The notes below the pieces were generated by a model, which saw nothing but the letters and a program-made list of their open reading frames with translations, had not been told where the DNA came from and made no database searches. Both the position numbers and the translations under genes were made by a program. Of a DNA stretch of 64,000 nt, positions 39,135 through 63,697 are shown piece after piece. The stretch comes from Rhodopseudomonas palustris (GTDB taxonomy: Bacteria; Pseudomonadota; Alphaproteobacteria; Rhizobiales; Xanthobacteraceae): positions 682,001 through 746,000 of the forward strand of contig NZ_CP019966.1 of the NCBI RefSeq assembly GCF_003031265.1, written 5' to 3'. Position 1 is the stretch's first letter. The number at the start of each line of letters is the position of its first letter.

Positions 39135-40319
39135 ATGCTCGACAGGCCGCATCACACCACGGCGGACATCATCGCCCGTTGCGAGACGCTGTTCTCAGAC
39201 CTCAGCTTCACCGCCGCCCGCGAATGGAAGGCCGCAGAGCCCGGCCGCATCGTGGTCGGCTTTCTGCCCTACTACGCTCCCCGCGAACTGGTCCACGCCG
39301 CCGGCGGATTGCCACTCGGGATCTTCGGTGGCGGCGACCAGCTCGAAGTCATCCACGGCGACGCCTACTATCAGAGCTACATCTGCCGAATTCCGCGCTC
39401 GACCATCGAACTCGGTGTCTCCGGCCGGCTCGACTTCGTCGACGGCATGATGTTTCCATCGATCTGCGACGTGATCCGCAATCTGTCGGGGATGTGGAAG
39501 CTGATGTTCCCGTCCAAGGGCGCGCGCTACATCGACCTGCCGCACAATTTCGACGACGATCTCGGCGGCGAGTTCTATGTCAGCGAGCTGCGCGAAACCT
39601 GCGAATGGCTGTCGAGCCTCACCGGCAAGCCGATCACCTCCGATGCGATCCGCGCCTCGATCGCGGTGTTCAACGACAACCGCCGGCTGGTCCGTGCGCT
39701 GTATCAGCTGCGCGCCGACGAGCCGTGGAACGTGCCGTCGGCGGAACTCTATCTGCTGCTCCGCGCCGGCATGGTGATCCCGGTCGAGGAGCACAACCAG
39801 ATGCTCACCGATTACCTGGCGGCAGTGCGGCTGCAGCAGCGGCCGATCAAGGACAATTCGCGCGTGGTGATCTGCGGCATGTTCTGCGAGCAGCCGCCGC
39901 TGAACCTAATCAAGTCGATCGAGCTGTCGGGTTGCTACATCGTCGACGACGACTTCATTCTGGTGACGCGCTGGGAGAATTCCGACGTCGCGCTCGACGG
40001 CGATCCGCTGCGGAGCCTCGCCCACGCATATCTGCACGACTCCAAATCGACGCCGCCGAAATACGAGCCGGACGAGGCCAAGAAGGGGCTGTGTCTGGTC
40101 GACAGCGTGCGGAAGAACCGCGCCGAAGGCGTGATCTTCGCCATGACGTCGTTCTGCGATCCAGGACTGCTCGAGCGGCCGATGCTGCAGGCGGTGCTGA
40201 AGAGCCACGGCATTCCGCAGATCGCTTTCAAATACGCCGAGAATTCCGGCCAGATGCAGCCGATCCGCGAGCAGGCCGGCACCTTCGCCGATTCGATCAA
40301 ATTGTGGAGCGGAGCATGA
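39135..40319 (+). CDS. badD: Benzoyl-CoA reductase, substrate-binding-type subunit (BcrC-like)
   Basis: This 394-residue protein is of the HgdB/BcrB-BcrC family: VVGFLPYYAPRELVHAAGG (about residues 39-57), MMFPSICDVIRNLSGMW, VPVEEHNQM-like stretch IPVEEHNQMLTDYL, and MTSFCDPGLLERPML (about 337-351) with a cluster-ligand Cys. With BadE it should bind benzoyl-CoA and a [4Fe-4S] cluster. GGGAGGA lies upstream of ATG 39135. It overlaps badE by four bases (ATGA). Confidence 0.94.
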   Translation: MLDRPHHTTADIIARCETLFSDLSFTAAREWKAAEPGRIVVGFLPYYAPRELVHAAGGLPLGIFGGGDQLEVIHGDAYYQSYICRIPRSTIELGVSGRLDFVDGMMFPSICDVIRNLSGMWKLMFPSKGARYIDLPHNFDDDLGGEFYVSELRETCEWLSSLTGKPITSDAIRASIAVFNDNRRLVRALYQLRADEPWNVPSAELYLLLRAGMVIPVEEHNQMLTDYLAAVRLQQRPIKDNSRVVICGMFCEQPPLNLIKSIELSGCYIVDDDFILVTRWENSDVALDGDPLRSLAHAYLHDSKSTPPKYEPDEAKKGLCLVDSVRKNRAEGVIFAMTSFCDPGLLERPMLQAVLKSHGIPQIAFKYAENSGQMQPIREQAGTFADSIKLWSGA

Positions 40320-41626
40320 CCGTCATCGTCGGACCGAAGACCAAGCCGCCGGAAGCCATCAAGGATGCGTCGATGGCGCGGCAGAAGCAGATGGTCAACG
40401 CCCACTACGATCGCCTCGCGAGCGCCAAGGAGCGCGGCGAGAAGGTGGCCGCGACCTTCGTGCCGGGCAATCTCAACGAGCTGCTGATGTGCTTCGACAT
40501 GGTCAACAACCTGCCGGAGGTCAACGCGATCCAGAACGGGCTGCGGCGGCAAAGCGGCGGCTACGTGATGGAGGCGGAAAAGCTCGGCCATTCCGAAGAC
40601 GTCTGCACCTACGTCAAATCCGACATCGGCATGATGGCCAAGGGCAATATCGGTCCGAACGGCAAGCCGCTGCCCGACCCGGACGTGCTGCTGCTATCCT
40701 ACACCGGCTGCTTCACCTTCATGAAATGGTTCGAGCTGCTACGCCGGCAGTACAAATGCGAGACCATCATGTTCCAGACGCCGTATCTGGCCGATGGCCG
40801 GATCACCAAGGACATGATCAGCTACATGGTCAAGCAGCTCCGGCAAGACGTGATCCCGAAGCTGGAGCGGATCTCAGGTGTCAAATTCGACATCGACCGG
40901 CTGCGCGAATATTTGCGCAAGTCCGCCAAGGCCGAGGACGATCACGTCTGGGTGCTGCAATCGGCCAAGCACAAGCCGTCGCCGATCGACGCCTATTTCG
41001 GTGGGATCTATTACATCGGGCCGATCTTCGGCGCCTTCCGCGGCACCGACGATGCGATCGAATACTACAAGTTCCTGCGCGCCGAGGTCGAGGGGCGGAT
41101 CGCGCAAGGTAAGGGGCCGGTGACGCCCGATGGCGACATGGGGCAGGAGCGCTACCGCCTAGTGGTGGAAGGCCCCCCGAACTACACCAATTTCCGCCAG
41201 TTCTGGAAGATGTTCTACGACGAGGGCGCCGTGGTGGTCGCCTCAAGCTACACCAAGGTCGGCGGCACCTATGATTACGGCTTCCGCCACGATCCGGATC
41301 GGCCGCTGGAGTCGCTCGCCGAATACTGCCTCAATGTCTACACCAACCGCAATCTGCCGATGCGGGTGGACATGCTGGAGAACTATATCAACGAATACCA
41401 GGCGGACGGCCTTCTGATCAATTCGATCAAGAGCTGCAATTCGTTCTCCGCCGGCCAGCTCCTGATGATGCGCGAGGTCGAGAAGCGCACCGGCAAGCCG
41501 GCGGCGTTCATCGAGACCGATCTGGTCGACCCGCGCTATTTCTCGGCCGCCAACGTCAAGAACCGGCTGGAGAGCTATTTCCAGATGATCGAACAGAAGC
41601 GCGCGGGCTTCCGCGGCGCCGCCTGA
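40316..41626 (+). CDS. badE: Benzoyl-CoA reductase, substrate-binding-type subunit (BcrB-like)
   Basis: The 436-residue partner of BadD in the same HgdB-like family carries [17 protein letters not shown] (about residues 124-140), [28 protein letters not shown] and [20 protein letters not shown] (about 376-395). The conserved Cys are likely cluster ligands. ATG 40316 overlaps the badD stop; a longer frame upstream is out of frame with badD and is only its shadow. badF follows after 11 bases. Confidence 0.94.
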
Positions 41627-41637
41627 GGAGCGCAACG

Positions 41638-42951
41638 ATGCGGACTTTCGTTGGAATCGATCTCGGCTCCACCACCACCAAGGCGGTGCTGATGGACGAC
41701 AACAAGGAGGTGATCGGGCGCGGCATCACCAATTCTCGCTCGAACTACGCCACCGCGGCGCGCGTCGCCTCCGAAGAGGCGCGGATCGACGCCCGGTTCA
41801 CGTTGTTCCGCCGGGCCCTTCACGTCGGCGAGGCCGGCCACGAGCACAGCGCCGAGTTCCTGGCGGCATTGGAGCGTAACTTCCGGCTCATTCAGTTTCT
41901 CGAACAGCTCGACGATCTGGAGGAGACGTGTCATCGCCAGCTCGAGGCGGATCGCTTCAAGTCGATTGCCGGCCCGCTGCAGGAGGCGCTGCACGTCATC
42001 TTCGCCCGGCTGCGGCAGGAGGCGGCCTCGCTCTATGCCCCCGGTGCCAAGCGCAAGTCGGATTTCTTCCGCGACATCGCCGGTTCGCGGTTTCATGTCC
42101 ACGCCGAAGCGGTGGCCCGCGAGATGGGGATCGCGCTGGACATGGTGCTGAACGCCTACGACAAGTCGATCATCGAGGTCGAGAATCGGCCGCCGGGTGG
42201 CGACCTCAGCGACAAGTTTCGCCGTGCCGTTGCGCGGATGCTGGCTGCGGATTCGCACGCGGCTGATGGCGAAGGCGATTTCGCCGCGATGATCGAGTCG
42301 GCGCTCGGGATCGAGCTGGAGGAGACCTATCTGGTCGGCACCGGCTACGGCCGGGTGACGCTGCCGTTCTCCAAGGAGCACATTCGCTCCGAGATCCTGT
42401 GCCACGGCCTCGGCGCCCACATGATGTATCCCGGCACGCGCACCGTGCTCGACATCGGCGGCCAGGACACCAAGGGCATTCAGATCGACGGTCACGGCAT
42501 CGTCGAGAACTTCCAGATGAACGATCGCTGCGCTGCCGGCTGCGGCCGCTATCTCGGCTACATCGCCGACGAGATGAACATGGGGCTGCACGAGCTCGGT
42601 CCGCTGGCGATGCAGTCCAATCGCCCGGCGCGGATCAATTCGACCTGCACGGTGTTCGCCGGCGCCGAACTGCGCGATCGGCTGTCGCTCGGCGAGAAGC
42701 GCGAGGACATTCTCGCCGGCCTGCACCGCGCCATCATCCTGCGGGCGATCTCGATCATCTCGCGCTCGGGCGGCGTCACCGATCAGTTCACCTTCACCGG
42801 CGGCGTCGCCAAGAACGAGGCGGCGGTCCGCGAGCTGCGCAAACTGATCCAAGAGAACTACGGCGAGGTGACGATCAACATCAATCCGGACTCGATCTAC
42901 ACCGGCGCGCTCGGCGCCTCCGAATTCGCCCGCCGCGCCGTCGCGGCGTGA
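41638..42951 (+). CDS. badF: Benzoyl-CoA reductase, ATP-binding subunit (BcrA-like)
   Basis: The 437-residue protein of the ASKHA activator family has phosphate-1 motif [18 protein letters not shown] (about residues 4-21) and [14 protein letters not shown] (about 270-283). The cluster Cys are in [12 protein letters not shown] (about 295-306) and [15 protein letters not shown]. With BadG it binds a [4Fe-4S] cluster between subunits and couples ATP hydrolysis to electron transfer onto benzoyl-CoA. badG follows after 53 bases with a strong GAGGAGGAAACG site. Confidence 0.94.
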
Positions 42952-43004
42952 ACGATGGGCGCTTGGATGATCAAACGTTCGGCCGGACTTGCGAGGAGGA
43001 AACG

Positions 43005-43838
43005 ATGACCATCACGTCGGGGATCGATGTCGGGACCGGGGCCATCAAGGTGGTGGCGTTCGCGGTCGAGGGCGACCAGGAGCGTTGCCTCGGCAAGCGG
43101 GTCGAGCGGGTGCGGCAGCGCGATCCCTTGAAGCTCGCCGGCGACATCTACGATGATCTGCTGAAAGAGACGGGTCTGGCGCGCGCCGACGTCGCCTATT
43201 GTGCCACCACCGGCGAGGGCGAGGCGCTCACCTTCCACACCGGGCACTTCTACTCGATGACGACGCATGCCCGCGGTGCGATCTATCTCAATCCGGGCAG
43301 CCGCGCGGTGCTGGACACCGGCGCGTTGCATGGCCGGGCGATCCGCATGGACGAGCGCGGCAAGGTGCTAGCCTACAAGATGACCAGTCAATGCGCCTCT
43401 GGCTCCGGACAGTTCCTGGAGAACATCGCCCGCTATCTCGGTATCGCGCAGGACGAGATCGGTTCGCTGTCGCAGCGTGCCGACAATCCGGAGAAAGTCT
43501 CCGGCATCTGCGCCGTGCTGGCCGAGACCGACGTCATCAACATGGTGTCGCGTGGGATCTCGTCGCCGAACATTCTGCGCGGCATCCATGAATCGATGGC
43601 CGACCGGCTGGCCAAGCTGCTCAAGACCCTCGGTAGCCTCGATGGCACGGTGCAGATGACCGGCGGTCTGGCGCTCGACGCCGGGCTGGTCGAGGCGATG
43701 AAGGACGCCGTGGTCAAGGCCAAGGTCGACGTCGCGATCGAGAGCCATCCGGACGCAATTTACGCCGGGGCGATCGGCGCAGCACTGTGGGGAGCCTTCC
43801 GTCACAAGAGGCTTGCCGACATGGCACGCGCCGCCTGA
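43005..43838 (+). CDS. badG: Benzoyl-CoA reductase, ATP-binding subunit (BcrD-like)
   Basis: The 277-residue ASKHA ATPase has SGIDVGTGAIKVVAFAVEG near the start, VLDTGALHGRAIRMDERG, the cluster-binding SQCASGSGQFLENIARYLG (about residues 128-146) and CAVLAETDVINMVSRG. It is shorter than BadF, as in the Thauera-type complex. It forms the activase half of the reductase with BadF. ATG 43005 is fixed by GAGGAGG 6 bases upstream. Confidence 0.94.
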   Translation: MTITSGIDVGTGAIKVVAFAVEGDQERCLGKRVERVRQRDPLKLAGDIYDDLLKETGLARADVAYCATTGEGEALTFHTGHFYSMTTHARGAIYLNPGSRAVLDTGALHGRAIRMDERGKVLAYKMTSQCASGSGQFLENIARYLGIAQDEIGSLSQRADNPEKVSGICAVLAETDVINMVSRGISSPNILRGIHESMADRLAKLLKTLGSLDGTVQMTGGLALDAGLVEAMKDAVVKAKVDVAIESHPDAIYAGAIGAALWGAFRHKRLADMARAA

Positions 43839-45528: not shown

Positions 45529-45545
45529 ACCGGGAGGAGGACGAC

Positions 45546-45837: not shown

Positions 45838-46302
45838 CTACGCCCGTCCGGCCGACGAATGCCGGGCCGAGGCGCCGTTCGGACCGCGTTCGGCTTTGCG
45901 GCGTTCGGTGTCGATTACCTTGAGCAGCGAGGTGATCGACACCGACCGAAGCGTCGTCATCGCGATTTCGTCGATGTCGCGCAGAACCTTGTGCAGCGCC
46001 CGGCTCTCTTCATGCTCGTCCGAGGCGGCCTCCTGCAGGTCGAGCCCGGTGTCTTCGAACAGCGCGATGATATCGAGCAGGGTGACGCGCTTGGGATTGC
46101 CGGCGAAGCGATAGCCGCCGCCGGGGCCGCGCACCGATTCGATCAAGCGCGCCCGCACCAAGGTGCGCAGCACCTTGGCCAGATGATTGAGCGAGATGTC
46201 GTATTTGTCGGCGATGTCGCCGGCCGAAACCTGACGATCCGGATTCGCCGCGAGTTCGAGCACGGCGTATAGTCCACACATCGTCGATTTCTGCAGCCGC
46301 AT
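45838..46302 (-). CDS. badM: Rrf2-family repressor BadM
   Basis: The 154-residue protein has a winged helix near the N-terminus (MCGLYAVLELAANPD, SAGDIADKYDISLNHLAKVLRTL at about 27-49, then the wing VRGPGGGYRF). The only Cys is residue 9, so it lacks the three-Cys [Fe-S] site of IscR or RsrR. In R. palustris, BadM represses badDEFGAB. Start ATG 46302 matches the family N-terminus (MRLQKSTMCGLYA). Longer in-frame starts would run into badL. Confidence 0.9.
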   Translation of the reverse strand: MRLQKSTMCGLYAVLELAANPDRQVSAGDIADKYDISLNHLAKVLRTLVRARLIESVRGPGGGYRFAGNPKRVTLLDIIALFEDTGLDLQEAASDEHEESRALHKVLRDIDEIAMTTLRSVSITSLLKVIDTERRKAERGPNGASARHSSAGRA

Positions 46303-46361
46303 CGGCGTCAATCTTCGTGTTGGTCTCGACCACAAACCGCGCGAGCGCGTCGGGGGTGTGA

Positions 46362-46841
46362 TCAGTCGAGATTCTTTTCCATTCCGATGAACCGGCCGAC
46401 CATCAGGCCCTGGCTGCGGAAGAACGCCATGACGAGCTGATTGTCGTGCTCGATCATCGTGCGAACCTTCCTCACCCCCGCCTGAGTGAAAATTAGACAA
46501 ATCTCTTCAAAGAGTTGCGTGCCGATACTGTTCACCCTTATCGCAGGATCGACGGTCAACGCAAACACCCAGCCGCAGCTTTCCGCACCGAACTCGAAAT
46601 CCCGCACTTCGCCACAGATGAAGCCGACCACCTCGCCCTTCAGCTCGGCGACCAGGAAGGCGCGGCAGCCGGCACGGTTCTGCGAGAAACTTTCAAACAG
46701 GCTCTGCCAATAACGCGGTTTGGCTTCGCCGGTCGCAGCCTCGTCGATCGCCGCCACGCGCGCCACGTCCGCCGCCGCAGCGGGCCGGATCTGCACATCG
46801 CGGTACGGCTCCGCCGCGGTGATGCTGCTTGCGCCACTCAT
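46362..46841 (-). CDS. badL: GNAT acetyltransferase BadL
   Basis: The 159-residue protein has a GNAT fold: IRPAAAADVARVAAIDEAAT (about residues 18-37), GWVFALTVDPAIRVNSIGTQLFEE (about 89-112, in place of the canonical Q/RxxGxG/A acetyl-CoA loop) and IEHDNQLVMAFFRSQGL (about 128-144). BadL in R. palustris acetylates aminobenzoates, and the acetamidobenzoates relieve BadM repression. It lies 59 bases upstream of badM on the same strand, fitting that functional pair. Confidence 0.88.
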   Translation of the reverse strand: MSGASSITAAEPYRDVQIRPAAAADVARVAAIDEAATGEAKPRYWQSLFESFSQNRAGCRAFLVAELKGEVVGFICGEVRDFEFGAESCGWVFALTVDPAIRVNSIGTQLFEEICLIFTQAGVRKVRTMIEHDNQLVMAFFRSQGLMVGRFIGMEKNLD

Positions 46842-46939: not shown

Positions 46940-47662
46940 TCAGACGCCCAGCATGGTTCTGACCATCTCCTGATCGGCGAGCAGCTCGGCCGAGGTGCCT
47001 TCGAACACCACCTGTCCCTTGGTCAGCACGACGTGGCGGTCGACCAGGTCGACCAGATCGTCGAGGTTCTTGTCGACGATCACGATCGAGATTCCCTTGC
47101 GCGCAATGATGCCGAGCGTTTCCCAGATCGCGTCGCGCATCTTGGGCGCAAGACCTTCGGTCGCTTCGTCGATCAGCAGGATGCTGGGATTGCTGAGCAG
47201 CACCCGTCCGATCGTCAGCATCTGCTGCTCGCCGCCAGACAGCTGATTGCCCCAGATCCGCCGCCGCTCGAATAGTCGCGGAAACATCTGGTAGATCGCC
47301 TCCTGGGTCCAGTCGACGCGGCCGTCAGGACCCGGGCGGGCCGCAAACAGAAGGTTTTCCTCGACCGACAGGTTCGGAAAGATGCCGCGTCCCTCCGGCA
47401 CGAAACCCATGCCGGCACGCGCCTTGATATTGGCCCTCGCATCGGTGACGTCGCGGCCGTCCAGCAGAATCGCGCCGCGCTTCGGCTTCAGTAGTCCCAT
47501 CAGTGTCCGCAGCAGCGTCGTCTTGCCCATGCCGTTGCGGCCGAGCAGGCTAACCGTCTCGCCACGGCCGACGTGGAAGTTCACGCCGCGCAGGATGTGG
47601 CTGGGGCCGTAGAAGGCGTCGATGCCGCGTGCATCGAGCATCGCTTGTGCCGCTGCGGTCAT
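46940..47662 (-). CDS. hbaH: ABC transporter ATP-binding protein, LivF type
   Basis: This 240-residue ATPase has Walker A LLGRNGMGKTTLLRTL (about residues 35-50), signature NQLSGGEQQMLTIGRVL (about 138-154), Walker B ILLIDEATEGLAP and the switch His replaced within SIVIVDKNLDDL. KNLDD in place of the common EQN or EHD is typical for LivF-like proteins. It belongs to the branched-chain-amino-acid/aromatic-acid transporter class. Its ATG overlaps the hbaG stop by four bases. The symbol follows the R. palustris hba cluster order. Confidence 0.85.
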   Translation of the reverse strand: MTAAAQAMLDARGIDAFYGPSHILRGVNFHVGRGETVSLLGRNGMGKTTLLRTLMGLLKPKRGAILLDGRDVTDARANIKARAGMGFVPEGRGIFPNLSVEENLLFAARPGPDGRVDWTQEAIYQMFPRLFERRRIWGNQLSGGEQQMLTIGRVLLSNPSILLIDEATEGLAPKMRDAIWETLGIIARKGISIVIVDKNLDDLVDLVDRHVVLTKGQVVFEGTSAELLADQEMVRTMLGV

Positions 47663-49446
47663 GCCGACTCCTTCATCTTGGCGTGATGACCGAGATAGGC
47701 TTCGAGCACGGCTTCGTTGCGCCGGATCTCATCGGGGCGGCCGCGGGCGAACAGCTTGCCCTGCACCAGCACCGTCAGCGTATCGGCGGCAGCGAACACC
47801 GCATCCATGTCGTGCTCGATCACGATCACGGTGTGGTCGCGCACCAGGTCACGCAACAGCGCCACCACCCGCTGGGTTTCCTCCGGCCCCATCCCGGCCA
47901 GCGGCTCGTCGAGGATCAAGAGATCGGCGCCGCTGGCGATCAGCATTGCGATTTCGAGCTGCCGCTGCTCGCCATTCGACATCCGTCCGGCAATGGTGTC
48001 GCCGCGATCGGCGAGTCCTGCGACCCGCAGGGCGCGGTCGACCGCGGCGTGTTCGCGCGCCCGATACGGCGCATCGCGCAGCCGCCACAGCGCGCCCTTG
48101 TCGAGTTGCGCCGCGAGCACGCAGTTCTCGCGCACGGTGAAGCGCGGGAAGATGTTGGTGCGCTGATAGGAACGGCCGAGGCCGGCGCGGGCGATCCGAT
48201 AGGCCGGCCAGCCGGTGACGTCGAGCTCGTCGATTTGCACACTGCCGGCGCTGGCGGGCAACGCGCCGGACAACAGGTTGGTGAAGGTGGTCTTGCCGGC
48301 GCCGTTCGGCCCGATGATGGCGTGGACCTTGTTGGGCTCAAACGTCACGGTGACGTCGCTGACCGCCGCGATGCCGTTGAAGTTCTTGCTGAGATGGCTG
48401 GTCGCCAGCGCCTTCGCGGTCTTCGCCGGACGCTGCGGTTCGTCCACCGGAGGCCGCGCGGGTGTGGCCTGGGGCTGCTTGCGCCGCCAGTTCAGCAATC
48501 CAGCGAGGCCGTCCGGCGACATCAGCACCGCGGCGATCAGTGTGGCGCCGGTGCCGAGCCGCCAATGGTCGGCGACCAGCGAGCCGACGATGCTGGCGGT
48601 CTTCAATAGTTCTTCCAACGACGAGTAGGCGAGCGCGCCGAGGATCGGGCCGAACAGCGTGCCGGCGCCGCCCAGCACCACCATCATGATGGCGAGGCCG
48701 GATTGATGCCAGTTGAGCAGGTCGGGCGTGACGAAACCGTCGATCGAGGCGAACAGCGCGCCGGCGAGCCCGGCCACCATGCCGGCAATGGTGAAGGCGG
48801 CGAGCTTGTAGCGATAGGTGTCGTAGCCGAGCGAACTCATCCGCACCTCGTTAGCGCGGATGCCCTGCAGCACCCGGCCGAACGGCGACCGCACCAGCGC
48901 CAGCAGCAGGCCGTAGGCGGCGATCAGCACGACGATGCAGACGTAATAGAACTGCAGGCGGTCGGAGAAATCGAGCAGCGTCAGACCGCCCAGCGTCAGC
49001 TCGGGCTTGACGTTGATATAGGCGCCGTCCGAGCCCTTGGCGATGTCGGTGTCGTGGAACAGCGCGAACAGCATCTGGCCGGCGGCCAGCGTCACCATGA
49101 TGAAATAGAAGCCACGCGTCAGCGTCGCGAACGCGCCGACCACCAGCGCGGCGAGCCCGCCGGCCAGCAGGCCAGCGCCGAGCGCGACAATGACATTGGC
49201 GGCCTCTGCCTCGGGTGAAACAAAATACACCGCATAGGCGCCGCAGCCGAAGAACGCGGCGTGGCCGAAACTGACCAGGCCGGTGACGCCGATCAGCAAG
49301 TCGAGGCTGAGCACGAAGGTCGCGATGATCACGATCCGTGTCATCAGCTTGACCGGATACGGTCCGGCGATGAACGGCAGCGCCAGCAGGCAGCCGAGCA
49401 GCACCGTGAAGAACAGGACGACGACGAGGTTGGGACGGGTCAGCAT
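47659..49446 (-). CDS. hbaG: ABC transporter LivM-LivG fusion (permease plus ATPase)
   Basis: In this 595-residue fusion, residues 1-300 are a LivM-type permease with about eight hydrophobic segments and GLVSFGHAAFFGCGAYAVYF, GVQGIRANE-like LQGIRANEVRMSSLGYDTY and GGAGTLFGPILGAL. Residues 345-590 are a LivG-type ATPase with Walker A AIIGPNGAGKTTFTNLLSG (about 377-395), signature MSNGEQRQLEIAM and Walker B LLILDEPLAGMGPEET. These are usually two genes. hbaF ends 2 bases before its start and hbaH overlaps its end. Confidence 0.88.
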   Translation of the reverse strand: MLTRPNLVVVLFFTVLLGCLLALPFIAGPYPVKLMTRIVIIATFVLSLDLLIGVTGLVSFGHAAFFGCGAYAVYFVSPEAEAANVIVALGAGLLAGGLAALVVGAFATLTRGFYFIMVTLAAGQMLFALFHDTDIAKGSDGAYINVKPELTLGGLTLLDFSDRLQFYYVCIVVLIAAYGLLLALVRSPFGRVLQGIRANEVRMSSLGYDTYRYKLAAFTIAGMVAGLAGALFASIDGFVTPDLLNWHQSGLAIMMVVLGGAGTLFGPILGALAYSSLEELLKTASIVGSLVADHWRLGTGATLIAAVLMSPDGLAGLLNWRRKQPQATPARPPVDEPQRPAKTAKALATSHLSKNFNGIAAVSDVTVTFEPNKVHAIIGPNGAGKTTFTNLLSGALPASAGSVQIDELDVTGWPAYRIARAGLGRSYQRTNIFPRFTVRENCVLAAQLDKGALWRLRDAPYRAREHAAVDRALRVAGLADRGDTIAGRMSNGEQRQLEIAMLIASGADLLILDEPLAGMGPEETQRVVALLRDLVRDHTVIVIEHDMDAVFAAADTLTVLVQGKLFARGRPDEIRRNEAVLEAYLGHHAKMKESA

Positions 49447-49448
49447 CG

Positions 49449-50309: not shown

Positions 50310-50394
50310 GGGAACCTGTCACCGATGTCGGTCGGGTAGGGCCGCGGACGGCGACGATGCGCCGGCCGCTGCCGAACCCTCAGTCGGGCAGTTA

Positions 50395-51673: not shown

Positions 51674-51750
51674 GAGACGCCAATGAGGCCGATGGTCGCA
51701 TCGTCAGTCTTGCTGATATTGCGCTGCACCCGCAAGCGCCGACTTGGTTG

Positions 51751-53370: not shown

Positions 53371-53438
53371 GGTTCCCTCCAACGTCTATGAATTGGAGTG
53401 ATCTAAGCGTTCGCTCGGAGCGATCTCCTTGATTTTTG

Positions 53439-53489: not shown

Positions 53490-53537
53490 GGATGCCGCCC
53501 TCCCGCGCCGACAGTCTGGTTGGCGAGGGAGCGACCC

Positions 53538-54029: not shown

Positions 54030-56359
54030 GCAGTCCCGCGTTTCAGGGAGGCCTCGACCGTGCCGGCGTTCCGCTGGTCGATGGCATCGACAAAGTCACC
54101 GGGCGAGCGCGTTATACCGCCGATCTGGATCATGCCGACGCGCTGGTCGCGCGGATTCTGCGCAGTCCGATCAGTCATGGCGAGATCGCCCGGCTCGATA
54201 TCAGCAAGGCCCTCGCGCTCAACGGCGTCGCTGCGATCGTCACCGGTGAGGACTGTGCGATCACCTACGGTGTGCTGCCGATCGCGATGAACGAATATCC
54301 GATGGCGCGCGATCGCGTCCGGTATCGAGGCGAGCCGATTGCTGCGGTGGCTGCGATCGACGCCGAGACGGCGCAGCGCGCGCTCGACCTGATCGAATGC
54401 GAGTTCCGAAAGCTGCCGGCCTACTATGAGTCCGAGGCTGCACGCGCCCCGGATGCTTGGTTGCTGCACGACAACAAGCCGGGCAATATCGAACGCGAAG
54501 TTCACAACGAGTTCGGCGATCTCGCCGCGGGCTTCGAAGCCGCCGACTTGATCCGTACCCACACGCACCATTGTGCGGAGGTCAACCACGCCCAGATCGA
54601 GCCGCATGCCTGTCTGATGGATTACGATCCGGCCACTGGGAGGCTGACCGCCCAGAGCGTGTCACAGGTCGGCTATTATCTGCACCTGATGCTGGCGCGC
54701 TGCCTCGAGATCGATCCGTCGCGGGTGCGGGTGATCAAGCCGTTCGTCGGCGGCGGTTTCGGCGCGCGGGTGGAGGTGCTGAACTTCGAGGTGATCGCCG
54801 CGCTGCTCGCCCGTAAGGCCGGCGGCAAAGTGTCGATGCGGCTGAGCCGTGAAGAGACCTTCATTACCCACCGCGCCCGGCCGCAGACCGACATCACCTT
54901 GACGATCGGCATGCGCCGCGACGGCCGGTTCACCGCCTGCTCATGCGAGGTGGTGCAGCGCGGCGGCGCCTATGCAGGTTACGGCATCGTCACCATCCTG
55001 TATGCTGGCGCGCTGCTGCAGGGTTTGTACGACATTCCGGCGGTCAAATACGACGGCTACCGCGTCTACACCAACCTGCCGCCGTGCGGCGCTATGCGCG
55101 GGCACGGCTCGGTCGACGTCCGTCATGCTTTCGAGAATCTGGTCGACCGGATGGCGCGAGAACTCGGCCACGATCCTTTTGCGGTGCGCCGTACCAATCT
55201 GCTGGCGGCGCCGACGCGCACGCTCAACGATCTGATGGTCAACAGCTACGGCCTCGCCGAGTGCCTGGACAAGGTCGAGCATGCCAGCGGCTGGCGCGAG
55301 CGGATCGGCCGGTTGCCGCCGGGCAAAGGCCTCGGCATGGCCTGCTCGCACTATGTCAGCGGCTCGGCCAAGCCGATCCATTTCACCGGCGAGCCCCATG
55401 CGGTGGTGGCGCTGCGGCTCGATTTCGACGGCGGCGTCACCGCGCTGACCGGCGCCGCGGACATCGGCCAGGGATCGTCCACCGTGGTGGCGATCACGGT
55501 CGCAGAAACGCTGGGCATCGCGCTGAACCGGGTCCGGGTGATTTCCGGCGACTCCGCCATCACTCCGAAGGACAATGGTGCGTATTCGTCGCGCATCACC
55601 TTCATGGTCGGCAACGCTGCCATCGATGCGGCGACGAAGTTGAAACAGATCCTGATCGCGGCGGCAGCCCGCAAGCTCGAGGCCGCGCCCGAGCAGATCG
55701 AGTGTGCCGGCGAGAGCTTCTTCATCGGCAGCGGCGCCCAGGCCGCGCTCGGGTTCGCCGAAGTGGCCAAAGCCGCGCTGGTCGACGAGGGCGCAATCAC
55801 GGTCAAGGGCACTTTCACGTGCCCGCCGGAATCGCAGGGCGGCAAACATCGCGGCGGCGCCGTCGGTTCGACAATGGGATTCAGCTACGCCGCTCAGGTG
55901 GTCGAGGTCAGCGTCGATGACGCGACCGGCCTGATCACCGTCGACAAGGTCTGGGCGGCGCTTGATTGCGGCCGCGCCATCAATCCGCTCGCGGTGGTCG
56001 GGCAGGTACAGGGCGCGGTGTGGATGGGGATGGGGCAGGCAATGTGCGAGGAGACGCGCTATCTCGACGGACTGCCCGCGCATGCCAGCTTTCTCGAATA
56101 CCGGATGCCGACGATGATTGAATCGCCTCCGATCGAGGTCGCGATCGTCGAAAGCGTCGATCCGTTTGGGCCGTTCGGCGCCAAGGAGGCCAGCGAAGGT
56201 GCGCTTGCTGGCTTTCCGCCGGCGATGGTCAATGCCGTCGCCAATGCCATCGGCATCGATCTCGATGATCTGCCGGCGACGCCCGATCGCGTCGTCGAGG
56301 CGCTGGCGCGGAGGCGGCGCGAAGCGAAGCGGGCAGTGGCGGTGAGGGCCGCTTCATGA
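54026..56359 (+). CDS. hbaC: 4-Hydroxybenzoyl-CoA reductase, molybdenum large subunit
   Basis: The 777-residue molybdopterin-binding subunit begins with the aldehyde oxidase/xanthine dehydrogenase a/b hammerhead (GIDKVTGRARYTADLDHADAL, about residues 18-38). Cofactor-contact segments are GGGFGARVEVLNFEVIAALL, GQGSSTVVAITVAETLGI and GPFGAKEASEGA (about 715-726), the last holding the expected active-site Glu. It removes the para-hydroxyl of 4-hydroxybenzoyl-CoA to give benzoyl-CoA. The ATGA overlap fixes the start at 54026, and it overlaps hbaD by four bases. Confidence 0.94.
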   Translation: MSSPAFQGGLDRAGVPLVDGIDKVTGRARYTADLDHADALVARILRSPISHGEIARLDISKALALNGVAAIVTGEDCAITYGVLPIAMNEYPMARDRVRYRGEPIAAVAAIDAETAQRALDLIECEFRKLPAYYESEAARAPDAWLLHDNKPGNIEREVHNEFGDLAAGFEAADLIRTHTHHCAEVNHAQIEPHACLMDYDPATGRLTAQSVSQVGYYLHLMLARCLEIDPSRVRVIKPFVGGGFGARVEVLNFEVIAALLARKAGGKVSMRLSREETFITHRARPQTDITLTIGMRRDGRFTACSCEVVQRGGAYAGYGIVTILYAGALLQGLYDIPAVKYDGYRVYTNLPPCGAMRGHGSVDVRHAFENLVDRMARELGHDPFAVRRTNLLAAPTRTLNDLMVNSYGLAECLDKVEHASGWRERIGRLPPGKGLGMACSHYVSGSAKPIHFTGEPHAVVALRLDFDGGVTALTGAADIGQGSSTVVAITVAETLGIALNRVRVISGDSAITPKDNGAYSSRITFMVGNAAIDAATKLKQILIAAAARKLEAAPEQIECAGESFFIGSGAQAALGFAEVAKAALVDEGAITVKGTFTCPPESQGGKHRGGAVGSTMGFSYAAQVVEVSVDDATGLITVDKVWAALDCGRAINPLAVVGQVQGAVWMGMGQAMCEETRYLDGLPAHASFLEYRMPTMIESPPIEVAIVESVDPFGPFGAKEASEGALAGFPPAMVNAVANAIGIDLDDLPATPDRVVEALARRRREAKRAVAVRAAS

Positions 56360-57333
56360 CGGGCCTGAACGCGTTGAATTTGCTTCGTCCCGGCTCGGTC
56401 GATGAGGCGATCGCCGCACTGCTGGCGCATCCGGAAGGACGGCTGCTCGGGGGCGGCACGGATCTGCTCGTCAACATGCGGCGCGGCATCGCGCAGCCCG
56501 AGACGCTGATCGACACCACCGGCATCGCCGAGATCAAACGGCTCGTCGCCGATGGCAGCGGCGTGACCATCGGCGCCGGAGTCAACGTGGCGACCCTCGC
56601 CGCCGACAGTCTGGTTGCGGCCTGCTATCCGGCGCTGAGCGAAGCTGCTCGCAGTGTGGCGGGGCCCGGTCATCGCAAGCTCGGCACCGTCGGTGGCAAT
56701 CTCTGCCTCGACACCCGCTGCATCTACTACAATCAGACCGAATGGTGGCGCGGGGCCAATGCGTACTGCCTGAAGAATCGCGGCGAGACTTGTCACGTCG
56801 CCCCGAAGGGCACCCGCTGCCACGCCGCCTTCAGCGGCGATCTTGCGCCGGCCCTGCTGGTGCTCGGCGCCGAGGTTGAGATCGCCGGGCCGGGTGGCCG
56901 GCGCCGCATCGCGCTCAGCGAATTGTATGTTGAAGATGGACGGGCGCATCTCGCGCTGCGGCCAGGCGAGGTCCTTGTTACGGTGTGGCTGCCGCCCGAC
57001 CCACCTGCGTCGCGCTACGTCAAGGTGCGGCAGCGCGGCGCAATCGACTATCCGCTTGCCGGCATAGCAGTTGCGCTGACGCGTTCCGGGTCCAAGATCG
57101 CGCAGCTTCGCATCGCGCTGACGGGGACCAATTCAAGGCCGTTCCTGCTCGCCGAGACCGCCGCCTTTTCGCAGCGGCCGCTCGACGATGCTCTGCTGCG
57201 CGAGATCGATCGGCTGGTGCAGAAACAAGTGCAGCCGATGCGGACGACGCTGATGCCGGCCAATTACCGGCGCGTCGTCGCGGCGGCCCTGGCAAGCCGC
57301 GTGACGGCCGAGCTGTTTGCCTCACTGGCGTAG
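56356..57333 (+). CDS. hbaD: 4-Hydroxybenzoyl-CoA reductase, FAD medium subunit
   Basis: The 325-residue protein has the CO-dehydrogenase-type FAD fold (GRLLGGGTDLLVNMRRGI, about residues 30-47, and AGPGHRKLGTVGGNLCLDTRC). An insert after GGNL, about residues 117-155, carries several Cys (NLCLDTRCIYYN, AYCLKN, ETCHVAPKGTRCHA). This is the extra [4Fe-4S]-binding loop that distinguishes the 4-hydroxybenzoyl-CoA reductase family from other members. The ATGA overlap with hbaC sets the start. Confidence 0.94.
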   Translation: MTGLNALNLLRPGSVDEAIAALLAHPEGRLLGGGTDLLVNMRRGIAQPETLIDTTGIAEIKRLVADGSGVTIGAGVNVATLAADSLVAACYPALSEAARSVAGPGHRKLGTVGGNLCLDTRCIYYNQTEWWRGANAYCLKNRGETCHVAPKGTRCHAAFSGDLAPALLVLGAEVEIAGPGGRRRIALSELYVEDGRAHLALRPGEVLVTVWLPPDPPASRYVKVRQRGAIDYPLAGIAVALTRSGSKIAQLRIALTGTNSRPFLLAETAAFSQRPLDDALLREIDRLVQKQVQPMRTTLMPANYRRVVAAALASRVTAELFASLA

Positions 57334-57362: not shown

Positions 57363-58088
57363 TTAGCGCACGGCCTGCAGCTTGCCGCGCACCGCACTGC
57401 GGCCGTCGGTTGCCAGCTTGCGCAACCGTGCGACATCGCGCACCGCGACTTGTGATGCCTCGACGGTGACGCCGATGCTGCGCAGCTTGGCGAAGGCCCG
57501 CGACAGCGATTCCGGCGTCAAACCCAACTCACCGGCGATCAGCGCCTTGTCGTAGGGCAGCACCAGCGCGCAGGAGCCGTGCTCGGCGGTCGCTAGCGAG
57601 GCGAGGAATTCGGCCAGCCGCTGCACCCCGCTCTGCGCCTTGAGTTGTTCGACACGCTGCACCAGATGGTGCATATGCTGGCAGATCGAAGCGATCATCG
57701 GCACCGAGATATCCGGGTTGGCTCGGATGCAGCGGACCAGATGATCGGCAGGGATTCGCGCGACACGCGCGTCGGTGACGGCTTCGGCGTTGGCCAGATA
57801 GCGATGGCCGGTCAGCGCCGCAGCTTCGGCGAAACTGCCGCCACGGCTCATGATTTCGATCACGGCTTCGTCGCCGGCCAGATTGCTGCGAAACAGCTTG
57901 ACCCAGCCGCCGACGACGATGAAGAACGCGGTCGCCGGTTCGTCCTGGCGCACGATCGACTCGCGCGGCCGCAGGCTGATCGCGGTGGCCGGCGCGATCA
58001 TGTGCGCGACGGTCTCCGCCTTCAGTCCGCGAAACACGGCGATCCGGGTGATGACCTGTAGATCACCACCGGTCAGCTTCGAAGCCAT
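57363..58088 (-). CDS. hbaR: Crp/Fnr-family regulator of 4-hydroxybenzoate genes
   Basis: The 241-residue protein has a cyclic-nucleotide-type sensor domain (about residues 20-130, RESIVRQDEPATAFFIVVGG) and a C-terminal helix-turn-helix (ALIAGELGLTPESLSRAFAKL, about 177-197). The recognition helix holds E-x-x-S-R, the FNR-type signature for TTGAT half-sites. The N-terminal Cys set of FNR is absent, so oxygen is not sensed through an [Fe-S] cluster. ATG 58088 is preferred to a TTG five codons earlier. It is convergent with hbaD. Confidence 0.9.
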   Translation of the reverse strand: MASKLTGGDLQVITRIAVFRGLKAETVAHMIAPATAISLRPRESIVRQDEPATAFFIVVGGWVKLFRSNLAGDEAVIEIMSRGGSFAEAAALTGHRYLANAEAVTDARVARIPADHLVRCIRANPDISVPMIASICQHMHHLVQRVEQLKAQSGVQRLAEFLASLATAEHGSCALVLPYDKALIAGELGLTPESLSRAFAKLRSIGVTVEASQVAVRDVARLRKLATDGRSAVRGKLQAVR

Positions 58089-58146
58089 CGAGAGCGTTTC
58101 CAATTTTGATTAGGGCAACTACACCCCATGCGGGTTTCGCGGTTCC

Positions 58147-58160
58147 TTGATCGCCATCAA
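58147..58160. promoter_or_regulatory. Perfect FNR-type box TTGAT-N4-ATCAA between hbaR and the dehydrogenase gene
   Basis: TTGATCGCCATCAA lies 59 bases upstream of the hbaR ATG and 122 bases upstream of the ATG at 58282. AadR is reported to activate hbaR in R. palustris, which fits this position. It could equally act on the rightward dehydrogenase-box genes. Confidence 0.75.
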
Positions 58161-58281: not shown

Positions 58282-59394
58282 ATGGACATTCGGGCGGCGG
58301 TGTTTCGAGAGATTGGCGCGGCGCTCCGCGTCGAGCGGATCGTGCTGGATCCGCCGCAGCCGACCGAAGTCTTGGTGCGGCTAGCTGCGATCGGCCTGTG
58401 CCGCACCGATTATCACGTGATGCGCGGCGAGCGCCGTGTTGCGATGCAGCCGATGGTGCTGGGTCATGAAGCCGCGGGGGTCGTCGAGGCGATCGGCAAT
58501 CAGGTGCAGGGCGTCGAGCCGGGCGATCACGTGGTGCTCACCTTCATTCCGGGCTGCGGTCGTTGTCGCTGGTGCCAGCGCGGATTGCATCATCTATGCG
58601 CCGAGGGGCCGCGCATCACGCATGGGCCGCAGCTCGACGGCAGCTTCCGCCGACGCGATGCCGACGGCCACGATGTCGGCGCGTTCTGCATGATCGGAGC
58701 GTTTGCCGAAGCCACGGTCGTCGATCAGGCCTCGGTGCTGGTGATCGAGAAGGATATTCCGCTCGATCATGCCAGCCTGATCGCTTGTGGCGTGCCGGCC
58801 GGTGTCGGCGCTGCGCGCCATCGCGCGCGCGTCAAGCCGGGCGACACCGTGCTGGTCGTGGGCTGCGGCGGCGACGGCATGAACGTGGTGCAGGGCGCAA
58901 AGCTCTGCGGCGCGTCGATGATCATCGCTGCCGACATCGTCGCACAAAAGCTGGAATGGGCGCGGAGCTTCGGCGCCACGCACGGCACCACGGCGCAAGG
59001 CGGCGAGCTGATCAGCACCGTGCAGGCGTTGACTGAAGGCGTTGGCGTCGATCACGCCTTCGTCTGCATCAACCCAGCCGAAACGCTGCTGCCGGCGTTT
59101 CGTGCCACCGCGAAGGCCGGCAACGTTGTGGTCACTGCGATCACGCCCGACACCGTCAAGCAGATCGACGTGCCGCCGCTGGAACTGTTCGCCACTCAGA
59201 AGGCGATCATGGGCGCGGTGTACGGCTTCGCCAGCCCGCGTCTGCAGATCCCCGAACTGCTGGGCTTGTATCGCCGCGGCGATCTCAAGCTCGGCGAACT
59301 GATCAGCCGGACCTATCGGCTCGACGAGATTAACCAAGGTTATGCCGACCTCGATGCCGGGCGGAACCTGCGCGGCGTAGTGCTGATCGATTAA
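58282..59394 (+). CDS. Zinc-dependent alcohol dehydrogenase (class III-like)
   Basis: This 370-residue medium-chain dehydrogenase begins MDIRAAVFREIGAALRVERI. Catalytic zinc ligands are in GLCRTDYHVMRG (Cys about residue 38) and LGHEAAGVVEAIG (His about 63). Structural zinc ligands are in GCGRCRWCQRGLHHLC (about 92-107). The Rossmann loop reads GCGGDGMNVVQGA, with Asp where Val is usual. Its length and pattern resemble class III or NDMA-type dehydrogenases. Upstream of boxC and boxB it may process an alcohol or aldehyde of an aromatic precursor; the substrate is unknown. ATG 58282 has ACGAGG upstream. Confidence 0.85.
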   Translation: MDIRAAVFREIGAALRVERIVLDPPQPTEVLVRLAAIGLCRTDYHVMRGERRVAMQPMVLGHEAAGVVEAIGNQVQGVEPGDHVVLTFIPGCGRCRWCQRGLHHLCAEGPRITHGPQLDGSFRRRDADGHDVGAFCMIGAFAEATVVDQASVLVIEKDIPLDHASLIACGVPAGVGAARHRARVKPGDTVLVVGCGGDGMNVVQGAKLCGASMIIAADIVAQKLEWARSFGATHGTTAQGGELISTVQALTEGVGVDHAFVCINPAETLLPAFRATAKAGNVVVTAITPDTVKQIDVPPLELFATQKAIMGAVYGFASPRLQIPELLGLYRRGDLKLGELISRTYRLDEINQGYADLDAGRNLRGVVLID

Positions 59395-59430
59395 AGTCAG
59401 CGCGCAACGCCGATGACAAAAGGAAGAACA

Positions 59431-60252
59431 ATGGCAGGCTTGAACCCGACTGGTACGCTGGCAATCGAAGGCGCCCAGTTGGAATATCGCTTCGCCGGTC
59501 CACAGCCGGACGTCGCGCCGACCCTTGTGTTGCTGCACGAAGGTTTGGGCTCGGCGGCGTTGTGGGGCGAATTTCCGGACAAGCTCGCGGCCGCGACCGG
59601 TGCCGGCGTGTTCGCATATTCCCGCGCCGGCTATGGCAGCTCGACACGTGCCGCATTGCCGCGCCCGCTCGACTACATGCATCGTGAGGCTTTGCAGGTG
59701 TTGCCGCGGGTGCTTGACCAGATCGGCTTTCGCCGCGGCCTGCTGGTCGGCCACTCCGACGGGGCCTCGATTGCGGCGCTGTATGCGGGCGGCGTCGCCG
59801 ATCACCGCGTTCGCGGTGTCTCGCTGATCGCGCCGCACTTCATCGTCGAAGACATTTCGGTGGCGTCGATCGCGGCGATTCGGACGACGTACGAGACGAC
59901 CGAGCTGCGTGCAAAGCTCGCGCGCTGGCACGACGACGTCGACAATGCCTTTTACGGCTGGAACGATGCCTGGCTCGATCCGGCGTTTCGCGCCTGGGAC
60001 ATCGCCGACTCGCTCGCTTACATCCGGGTGCCGCTGCAGATCGTGCAGGGCGAGAACGACCAATACGGAACGATGCGGCAGATCGAGATCGCACGTTCGG
60101 AATGCTATTGCCCGCTCGAAGTCGAACTGCTCGCGGGAGCGGGGCATTCGCCGCATCGCGAAGCCGCCGACGCGACGCTGCGGCTGATCGCCGGCTTCGC
60201 GGACCGCATTCTGAGCGGCCATGCCGAGGCGACCGGCGGTCGCGCGGCCTGA
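59431..60252 (+). CDS. Alpha/beta-fold hydrolase
   Basis: The 273-residue protein has LVLLHEGLGSAALW (oxyanion loop, about residues 33-46), AYSRAGYGSS, and the nucleophile elbow GHSDGASIAAL (Ser replaced by Asp at the second position after His: G-H-S-D-G, Ser at about 109). A late GAGHSPHRE provides the catalytic His. It may be a thioesterase, lactonase or ring-fission hydrolase acting with the box genes; the substrate is unknown. AAGGAAG 5 bases upstream supports ATG 59431 over an ATG at 59413. Confidence 0.8.
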   Translation: MAGLNPTGTLAIEGAQLEYRFAGPQPDVAPTLVLLHEGLGSAALWGEFPDKLAAATGAGVFAYSRAGYGSSTRAALPRPLDYMHREALQVLPRVLDQIGFRRGLLVGHSDGASIAALYAGGVADHRVRGVSLIAPHFIVEDISVASIAAIRTTYETTELRAKLARWHDDVDNAFYGWNDAWLDPAFRAWDIADSLAYIRVPLQIVQGENDQYGTMRQIEIARSECYCPLEVELLAGAGHSPHREAADATLRLIAGFADRILSGHAEATGGRAA

Positions 60253-60282
60253 TCGGCCATCGGCAATGGACCAGGCCGCCTC

Positions 60283-60352
60283 GCATTAAAATGCATCAAA
60301 GTCGCATTTGCGGCTGGACTCTCCGGCAAAACATGAATTATAATGCACATTA
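60283..60352. promoter_or_regulatory. Two related AATGCA-containing dyads upstream of boxC
   Basis: GCATTAAAATGC (60283-60294) and TAATGCACATTA (60341-60352) are each dyads with a 2-base centre. They share the word TTAWAATGCAY (60286-60296 and 60338-60348), 52 bases apart. They lie in the 128-base gap before boxC and could be operators for a box-pathway regulator. BoxR-type regulators in other bacteria use TGCA-containing sites, which fits but is not proof. Confidence 0.45.
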
Positions 60353-62129: not shown

Positions 62130-62210
62130 GTCATTGCGAGCGAAGCGAAGCAATCCAGGACCGCGCGCGAGGCAGCTGGATTGCTTCGTCGTTCCGTTCC
62201 TCGCAATGAC
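62130..62210. repeat. Palindromic repeat between boxC and boxB
   Basis: The outer words GTCATTGCGAG (62130-62140) and CTCGCAATGAC (62200-62210) are perfect complements. Inner words GAAGCAATCCAG and CTGGATTGCTTC (near 62147-62158 and 62176-62187) also pair. This GTCATTGCGAGCGAAGCGAAG-type element is widespread in alphaproteobacteria. It would fold in the boxC-boxB transcript and could change the relative stability of its parts. Confidence 0.8.
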
Positions 62211-62245
62211 GGTGATTGATACCGCGATCAACCCGGGAGCCGCCC

Positions 62246-63697
62246 ATGAACATGAACATCATGCACGTCGACTACTCGACCAAGATCCCCAACAACGTCG
62301 ATCTCGGCTCCGATCGCCAGGTGCTGAAGGCGCTCGAGGGATGGCATCCCGGCTACATCGACTGGTGGAACGACATGGGGCCGGAGGGCTTCCAGGAGTC
62401 GCTGGTGTACTTGCGCACGGCGTATTCGGTCGACCCGCGCGGCTGGGCGAAGTTCGACTACGTCAAGATGCCCGATTATCGTTGGGGCATTCTGCTGGCG
62501 CCGAAGGAAGAAGGCCGCGTGGTGCCGTTCGGCCAGCATTACGGCGAGCCGGCTTGGCAGGAAGTGCCGGGCGAGCACCGCGCGATGCTGCGGCGGCTGA
62601 TCGTGATCCAGGGTGATACCGAGCCGGCGTCGGTCGAGCAGCAGCGCCATCTCGGCAAGACCGCGCCGTCGCTCTACGACATGCGCAACCTGTTCCAGGT
62701 CAACGTCGAAGAGGGTCGCCATCTGTGGGCGATGGTGTACCTGCTGCAGAAATACTTCGGACGCGACGGCCGCGAGGAGGCTGACGGTCTGCTGCGCCGC
62801 CGCTCCGGCTCGGACGATGCGCCGCGGATGCTGGGGGCGTTCAACGAGGCGACGCCGGACTGGCTGTCGTTCTTCATGTTCACCTATTTCACCGACCGCG
62901 ACGGCAAGATGCAGCTACACAGCCTGGCGCAGTCGGGCTTCGATCCGCTGTCCCGCACTTGCCGCTTCATGTTGACCGAAGAAGCGCACCACATGTTCGT
63001 CGGCGAGACCGGCATCAGCCGGGTGGTGCAGCGGACCTGCGAGGCGATGCGCGCCGCGGGCATCACCGATCCGACCGACATCGACAAGGTCCGCGCGCTC
63101 GGCGTGATCGATTTGCCGACGGTGCAAAAGAAGCTCAATCTGCACTACTCGCTGTCGCTCGATCTGTTCGGCTCGGAAGTCTCGACCAACGCCGCCAACG
63201 CCTTCAATGCCGGCATCAAGGGGCGCTTCCACGAGACTCAGATCCAGGACGACCACAAGCTCGAGCACGACACCTATCCGGTGCTGAAGCTGGTGGACGG
63301 CGAGATCAAGCGTGTCGACGAGCCGGCGCTGACCGCGCTGAACATGCGGCTGCGTGACGATTACTCGCAGGATTGCGTCAAGGGTCTGCTGCGCTGGAAC
63401 AAGGTGATCACCACCGCCGGCTACGACTTCCAGCTCAAGCTGCCGCACGTCGCGTTCCACCGCCAGATCGGCGAGTTCAAGGACGTCGAAGCGACGCCCG
63501 ACGGCGTGCTGATCGATCCGGCGACCTGGGCCAAGCGGCGCAACGAATGGCTGCCGTCGGGGGATGATGGCGAATTCATCGCCTCGCTGATGGTGCCGGT
63601 GTCGGAGGCCGGGCAGTACGCGTCGTGGATCTCGCCGCCGAAGGTCGGCATCGACAATCGCCCGGGTGATTTCGAGTACGTCAAGATCGAGACCTGA
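62246..63697 (+). CDS. boxB: Benzoyl-CoA 2,3-epoxidase (BoxB)
   Basis: The 483-residue diiron oxygenase has the paired ExxH ligand motifs in EEGRHLWAMVY (E156, H159) and TEEAHHMFVGE (E246, H249). Characteristic segments are WWNDMGPEGFQES near the start and GRFHETQIQDDHKLEHDTYP at about 327-346. BoxB adds oxygen to the benzoyl-CoA ring, with electrons from BoxA, which is not in the window. ATG 62246 has GGGAG 6 bases upstream; ten extra residues from an earlier start would lie in the repeat. A terminator follows. Confidence 0.95.
   Translation: MNMNIMHVDYSTKIPNNVDLGSDRQVLKALEGWHPGYIDWWNDMGPEGFQESLVYLRTAYSVDPRGWAKFDYVKMPDYRWGILLAPKEEGRVVPFGQHYGEPAWQEVPGEHRAMLRRLIVIQGDTEPASVEQQRHLGKTAPSLYDMRNLFQVNVEEGRHLWAMVYLLQKYFGRDGREEADGLLRRRSGSDDAPRMLGAFNEATPDWLSFFMFTYFTDRDGKMQLHSLAQSGFDPLSRTCRFMLTEEAHHMFVGETGISRVVQRTCEAMRAAGITDPTDIDKVRALGVIDLPTVQKKLNLHYSLSLDLFGSEVSTNAANAFNAGIKGRFHETQIQDDHKLEHDTYPVLKLVDGEIKRVDEPALTALNMRLRDDYSQDCVKGLLRWNKVITTAGYDFQLKLPHVAFHRQIGEFKDVEATPDGVLIDPATWAKRRNEWLPSGDDGEFIASLMVPVSEAGQYASWISPPKVGIDNRPGDFEYVKIET

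Follow-up and report, generated by a model that had tools for sequence, protein, structure and literature searches.

The window analysed here is a stretch of 64,000 nucleotides of Rhodopseudomonas palustris (G000:C1:682001-746000, where G000 is a single-contig genome of 5,269,926 bp). It encodes the predicted ATP-dependent benzoyl-coenzyme A (CoA) reductase BadDEFG, the 4-hydroxybenzoyl-CoA reductase HbaBCD, and the box enzymes BoxC and BoxB in one locus. We consider it fairly probable that this is a conserved benzoyl-CoA island with a reductive and an oxidative route, in which a stripped, BoxA-less box operon is fed by a shared ligase and by a ferredoxin and reductase. R. palustris is a model for anaerobic aromatic degradation, and its box genes are hardly described in the open-access literature searched. 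As far as our searches show, the box content is the new part. A stripped, BoxA-less box operon inside a bad-hba island is apparently undescribed in that literature. Likewise new within it are the number of boxB genomes without BoxA and the ferredoxin gene pair of one related genus, both given below.

If the box genes function in the absence of BoxA, the BoxAB epoxidase with its two proteins would not be the general form in Alphaproteobacteria, and pathway predictions that require boxA would overlook 91 of the family's 151 sampled boxB genomes. The locus could also show the handover of one intermediate between reductive and oxidative routes in one cell.

Gene content of the benzoyl-CoA island

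Gene identity was assigned by NCBIfam profiles with curated cut-offs, plus Pfam domains. Positions are those of the window, and scores are in bits, against the cut-off where two are given. The genes of the two routes are the following.

39135..43838, plus strand: badDEFG, ATP-dependent benzoyl-CoA reductase (four TIGR families above cut-off)
39135-40319, plus strand: badD (TIGR02263, 815 against 421)
40346-41626, plus strand: badE (TIGR02260, 945 against 487)
41638-42951, plus strand: badF (TIGR02259, 919 against 578)
42999-43838, plus strand: badG (TIGR02261, 559 against 313)
43954-45528, plus strand: badA, benzoate-CoA ligase (TIGR02262, 892 against 375)
45546-45791, plus strand: badB, 2[4Fe-4S] ferredoxin (NF033683, 113 against 86)
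51751..53382, minus strand: hbaA-like aryl-CoA ligase (TIGR02262, 901)
53520..57333, plus strand: hbaBCD, 4-hydroxybenzoyl-CoA reductase (TIGR03193, TIGR03194 and TIGR03195, all above cut-off)
59413..60252, plus strand: alpha/beta hydrolase (abH), companion of box clusters (Pfam)
60381-62075, plus strand: boxC, 2,3-epoxybenzoyl-CoA dihydrolase (TIGR03222, 1025 against 712)
62216-63697, plus strand: boxB, diiron benzoyl-CoA 2,3-epoxidase (TIGR03225, 914 against 499), right end of the conserved block

Four bcrCBAD-type subunits above their curated cut-offs, together with a ferredoxin, argue for a reductase of the bad/bcr type, and the family scores of BoxB and BoxC point to the epoxidase and the dihydrolase of the Box pathway. 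A preliminary description of this DNA had reported bad and box genes in one locus, and all the genes that it named were recovered where it had placed them or close by, with scores far above the cut-offs. The regulators that it had noticed between the two sets correspond to a BadM-like protein of the Rrf2 type (45838-46266) and an HbaR-like protein of the Crp/Fnr type (57363-58103). hbaBCD and the second aryl-CoA ligase also lie between the bad and box sets, and were absent from that description.

Conservation of the block and ancestry of the box genes

Sixteen Rhodopseudomonas genomes were searched, and boxB was found in 11 of them, badE in four, and hbaD in the same four. The 32-kb block from badK to boxB is whole in three of the four reductase-bearing genomes, G000, G190, and G125. 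Block proteins of G190 and G125 are 88-100% identical to those of the window (98% for boxB, 99% for badE). In G000 and G190 the block is flanked by flagellar genes and by a gene encoding an oxidoreductase fusion protein (NF009413, see below). None of the window's flagellar genes were found in the 20 kb left of the block in G125, and the fusion gene is located elsewhere in that genome. Since the block ends are the same while the flanks in G125 differ, the block behaves as a unit ending at badK and boxB.

The locus had been proposed to be strain-specific, which does not hold, as gene-order comparison recovered this block from G190 and G125 too, and the locus tags of strain CGA009 fit as well. 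According to the available parts of the two papers, boxB of CGA009 is rpa0677 (PMC12844201), and badR and badE are RPA0655 and RPA0658 (PMC13289028). The distance of 19 tags between badE and boxB in the bad/hba region of CGA009 equals the 19 gene steps between them in the window. Judged from these tags, the gene order of CGA009 is probably the same as that of the window; the available text of PMC13289028 gives badD as RPA0654, which is at odds with this order. No box gene of CGA009 appears in the main text of PMC13289028 and PMC6191541, as far as available.

The fourth reductase-bearing genome, G141, carries bad-hba genes without box genes on one contig, and a stand-alone box cluster on another. 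This cluster and four loci read from reductase-less Rhodopseudomonas possess their own ligase and boxR in all five cases, and the transporter in four of the five. In contrast, abH-boxC-boxB of the window has no ligase, transporter, or boxR of its own at the locus. Stand-alone clusters elsewhere in Rhodopseudomonas and in related genomes likewise lack boxA, and they hold the nearest relatives of the window's BoxB. The BoxB tree contains 40 rows, none of which was removed by a length filter set at 380 residues or fewer. In it, the copies of G000, G190, and G125 cluster in a single clade (100/99) whose sister group comprises the eight other Rhodopseudomonas copies (84/83), five of them from loci that were read and are stand-alone clusters. 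The support for this sister relation is moderate. Because the embedded clade is sister to the copies of the genus, the most likely history of these box genes is descent within the genus followed by a move to the side of hba, and the box part is most likely a stripped operon abH-boxC-boxB derived from the stand-alone box cluster of the genus.

Loci with an hbaD-like gene were also searched for box genes. Among the best 80 of 315 such loci, several of them short, boxB was found near the hbaD-like gene in four metagenome loci (L125, L147, L149, and L159), with hbaD 48-56% identical. The BoxB copies of these four occupy two distant places in the tree, so hba-like and box genes probably came together more than once.

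Absence of BoxA and integrity of BoxB and BoxC

BoxA (TIGR03224) was not detected above the cut-off in the single-contig genome G000, where the best match reached 68.8 bits against 459.2. A BoxA protein query found at best 36% identity, in the reductase domain only, of a CysJ-like protein. The next gene 3' of boxB, beyond the window, is not boxA.

The lack of BoxA is widespread in the family. We sampled 248 genomes, many of them drafts, and counted boxA and boxB profile matches at an E-value of 1e-50. boxB was present in 151 genomes, boxA in 63, both in 60, and boxB without boxA in 91. Part of the absences in draft genomes is possibly unsequenced boxA; single-contig boxB genomes without boxA include G000, G108, G125, G190, G199, G024, G122, and G153. 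A real BoxA query against 33 of the 91 boxA-less genomes gave partial matches only, the best-scoring of 41% over 149 amino acids, and no match at an E-value of 1e-8 in G050 and G127. The same query reached 100% and 73% in the two controls. Outside the family, six of 31 boxB genomes drawn from the phylum had no boxA at 1e-50, five of them from the same class and one from elsewhere. A further case from the phylum sample is G628, which has only a piece of boxA at a contig end.

The window's BoxB aligns end to end with the solved BoxB (3per, 3pf7, 3pm5, and 3q1g; phmmer, 668 bits). The six positions that we take to be the diiron ligands (E120, E150, H153, D211, E240, and H243) are identical in both. 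The ratios of nonsynonymous to synonymous substitution rates (dN/dS) between G000 and six relatives are 0.02-0.17 for boxB and 0.04-0.20 for boxC, and both genes are under purifying selection. The preliminary description had held that its reading would be refuted if the genome had no boxA. The gene was indeed not found, yet this does not by itself make boxB a dead gene, since 91 of the 151 boxB genomes in the family sample lack boxA and the genes are under purifying selection.

One locus of the family, L081 (G228), carries two boxB copies flanking one boxA. The copy 5' of boxA groups with those of G043 and G065, which possess boxA, and of G045, which lacks it. The other copy groups with the BoxA-less clade.

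Candidate electron donors for BoxB

Genus g34 offers the best hint of a replacement for BoxA. The family profile search detected no boxA in any boxB genome of this genus, and 15 of its 17 boxB genomes encode a [2Fe-2S] ferredoxin no more than 5.5 kb from boxB. A thioredoxin-reductase-like flavoprotein of 342 amino acids adjoins the ferredoxin in 10 of the 11 genomes examined. Its NCBIfam match is loose (124 bits to thioredoxin reductase, whose cut-off is 343), and we take it to be a ferredoxin-NADP reductase. The pair was located as follows.

L071:5122-6510 and L181-L190: ferredoxin and reductase-like pair of g34, near boxR/boxC

This gene pair suggests that a ferredoxin and a reductase can stand in for BoxA; it is a hint and not proof for R. 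palustris. The CysJ-like protein (L006, PRK06214 type) was considered as donor and rejected, as similar matches are also present in the BoxA-bearing controls G065 and G038.

BoxR-type operators and the promoter-like sequence of boxC

According to the available parts of the sources, BoxR binds TGCA repeats, chiefly TGCA-N6-TGCA (PMC6449761), and BzdR likewise binds TGCA repeats (PMC6678401). The 220 bp 5' of boxC were scanned for this operator in 32 loci; the background frequency, with these sites counted in, is 0.06 per kb. The corresponding features of the window are the following.

60282..60295, plus strand: upstream BoxR-type operator, altered, CGCA-N6-TGCA (alignment with stand-alone clusters)
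60315..60347, plus strand: boxCB promoter-like sequence, TGGACT, 18 bp, and TATAAT (60339-60344)
60334-60347, plus strand: downstream BoxR-type operator, altered, TGAA-N6-TGCA, inside the boxCB promoter-like sequence

An intact TGCA-N6-TGCA was found in 21 of the 32 loci, including all five stand-alone Rhodopseudomonas clusters but none of the three embedded loci. The two operator places of the window are about 52 bp apart with one half-site changed in each, and both operators have one changed half-site in all three embedded loci. The upstream one occupies the place of the intact motif in the stand-alone Rhodopseudomonas clusters. The promoter-like hexamers of boxC are conserved intact, whereas the flanking sequence diverges. 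A pattern derived from this promoter, with two mismatches, was found once against 2.68 expected in shuffles, and is not rare.

With no boxR in the locus and the half-sites changed together, our guess is that the box operon may be out of BoxR control.

Proposed function of the locus

In the proposed mechanism, BadA and HbaA would convert benzoate and 4-hydroxybenzoate to their CoA esters, and HbaBCD would turn 4-hydroxybenzoyl-CoA into benzoyl-CoA. Without oxygen, the ring would be reduced by BadDEFG with the ferredoxin BadB. BoxB epoxidase requires oxygen; with some of it present, BoxB would epoxidise the same benzoyl-CoA and BoxC would open the ring. BadA would also supply the box branch, and a [2Fe-2S] ferredoxin and a reductase encoded elsewhere may feed BoxB in place of BoxA, a supply proposed because of the gene pair beside boxB in the related BoxA-less genus. 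The operon would have left BoxR control and may serve low oxygen or oxygen shifts.

This dual-route reading is plausible from the gene content. The earlier statement that routes of opposite oxygen requirement meeting at benzoyl-CoA are encoded together stands. The sharing of BadA, which had been thought likely, is the simplest reading, since no ligase gene directly accompanies the box genes. Use of one ligase for both routes has been reported in Thauera and Magnetospirillum (PMC6449761, available part), and the accessible text of PMC10803450 describes "hybrid" contexts, in which one ligase has both reductase and box genes nearby, for 10 of 132 sequences. The locus shares BoxB, BoxC, an alpha/beta hydrolase, and benzoyl-CoA with the BoxABCD/BclA/BoxR systems of Azoarcus/Aromatoleum, Thauera, and Burkholderia. 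Unlike them, it goes with no BoxA above the cut-off anywhere in the genome, carries neither boxR nor a ligase of its own for the box part, has changed operators, and lies beside hba.

Several observations weigh against parts of this proposal. The window, the adjoining downstream locus L003, and the box loci of G141 (L060) and G024 (L063) yielded no ferredoxin/reductase pair. Even within g34, the ferredoxin of G191 is on another contig, G182 has none in the rows listed, and G127 has the ferredoxin without the reductase-like gene beside boxB. A relative of the ferredoxin at an E-value of 1e-20 is present in 244 of the 248 genomes of the family, whether they carry boxB or not, and the box-cluster ferredoxin fails as a profile marker of BoxA-less genomes. 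As to BoxR, the boxR cluster is absent from the three embedded loci, a search that did not extend to the rest of the genome. An intact motif is also missing from the stretch searched in eight other loci (L066-L070, L075, L092, and L093), and two of the genomes concerned, G005 and G050 (L066 and L067), keep boxR and show a similar change of one half-site. Loss of a half-site alone thus does not prove escape from BoxR. Finally, the available text of PMC13289028 assigns, by proteomics, the bad enzymes of CGA009 to anaerobic and the enzymes of the beta-ketoadipate route to aerobic conditions; boxB and boxC do not appear in its main text as far as available.

In the available part of PMC12844201, a model of the growth of CGA009 on lignin breakdown products ranks rpa0677 among its twenty most predictive genes. 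The same text labels BoxB as an anaerobic enzyme, despite its being an oxygen-dependent epoxidase.

A wider reading is less likely than not. BoxB of Alphaproteobacteria may have been freed from BoxA, which many lineages would have lost, and be run by an exchangeable [2Fe-2S] ferredoxin and reductase, and the R. palustris operon, out of BoxR control, may have been captured by the anaerobic island with its shared ligase pool. The result would be a single locus for benzoyl-CoA on both sides of the oxic-anoxic boundary. It is weakened by the loci that keep boxR and can also be without an intact operator.

Alternative explanations for the box operon

The control of the box operon could also lie with AadR. 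We take TTGAT-N4-ATCAA to be the FNR/AadR-type motif, and two perfect palindromes were found in the window, against 0.02 expected in shuffles.

39017..39030, no strand: FNR/AadR-type palindrome TTGAT-N4-ATCAA, perfect, 5' of badD (motif scan)
57363..58103, minus strand: hbaR-like Crp/Fnr regulator (cNMP_binding, HTH_Crp_2)
58147..58160, no strand: FNR/AadR-type palindrome, perfect, in the divergent hbaR/ADH intergenic region (motif scan)
58282..59394, plus strand: zinc alcohol dehydrogenase (ADH; ADH_N and ADH_zinc_N, Pfam run on 58147-59394)

The second palindrome lies about 120 bp 5' of ADH and has the same motif as the one before badD, and ADH, abH, boxC, and boxB are all co-directional. 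The available part of PMC6191541 describes AadR as an activator of badDEFGAB under the FixLJ-K oxygen-sensing cascade. AadR might therefore drive the box operon from the hbaR/ADH region, with the oxygenase made ahead of or during a micro-oxic transition. We regard this as unlikely. The palindrome is conserved in G190 and G125, and it is kept with its flank 5' of hbaR in the G141 locus, which has neither ADH nor box genes. As no box follows there, hbaR is the likelier target of the site at 58147..58160, and its older role was probably in the control of hbaR. Moreover, boxC has promoter-like sequence of its own. The sequence beside the palindrome (58161-58203, around ATTATGTTGCATTGCAG) is also conserved over most of its length, G141 included, and is possibly a second regulator site for hbaR.

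In a further explanation, boxB and boxC are relics, the oxygen route being dead without BoxA and an adjacent boxR, and the genes being in the course of loss. The absence of BoxA above the cut-off, the changed BoxR-type operators, and the five of 16 genus genomes without boxB fit this explanation, which is nevertheless improbable. Both frames are full-length with conserved metal ligands, dN/dS is 0.02-0.20 for boxB and boxC, the promoter segment of boxC stays near-identical despite a diverging flank, and boxB is kept in many BoxA-less genomes.

The last candidate is the fusion protein encoded directly 3' of boxB.

L003:23-3007 (window-equivalent 64023-67007), plus strand: NF009413 fusion protein, 994 amino acids (2132 bits), starting about 325 bp after boxB

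It has two oxidoreductase parts, with FAD/NAD(P) and iron-sulfur domains, and Pfam detected no ferritin domain in it. We take it to be NfnS/NfnL-like, and its ferritin-like end is presumed from the name of the family. A replacement of BoxA by this protein as the reductase of BoxB would suit its domains and its place (same strand as boxB in G000, and next to boxB in G190), but it is very improbable and was dropped on its distribution, as the family scores above the cut-off in only seven of the 248 genomes (six of these Rhodopseudomonas), whereas 91 sampled boxB genomes lack boxA, and the gene is present in G028, G170, and G215, which have no boxB, and far from boxB in G125. Its neighbours on the YgiQ side are unchanged in these genomes. 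Its adjacency to boxB looks like the edge of the island.

Other genes of the island

The remaining genes of the block are the following.

31917..37217, minus strand: homologues of badK, aliA, aliB, badI, and badH (lower anaerobic pathway), left boundary of the conserved block
37340..37867, plus strand: badR-like MarR regulator (Pfam MarR_2; position conserved)
45838..46841, minus strand: badM-like Rrf2 repressor (45838-46266, TIGR00738) and badL-like acetyltransferase (Acetyltransf_1)
46940..51735, minus strand: branched-chain-type ATP-binding cassette (ABC) transporter (urea/Liv-type families, all below equivalog cut-offs)

The names badK, aliA, aliB, badI, and badH are presumed from position, as 31917-32693 alone was searched against families; its top match is the enoyl-CoA hydratase PRK05862, with 393 bits slightly below the cut-off of 396. 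The genes at 31917..37217 are co-conserved in G190, G125, and G141. BadL and BadM are described in the available part of PMC6191541. The substrate of the ABC transporter is assigned from gene position.

The abH cluster is present in 26 loci, against 32 for boxC, and its usual place is directly 5' of boxC. A single transfer RNA gene was detected (Arg, at 16837), and it lies outside the block. Among the clustered loci, ADH is restricted to the three embedded ones. A 78% identical gene adjoins hbaA in L117, a metagenome locus in which box genes were not seen, and the ADH of the window (58282-59394) may belong to the hba side and not to the box operon.

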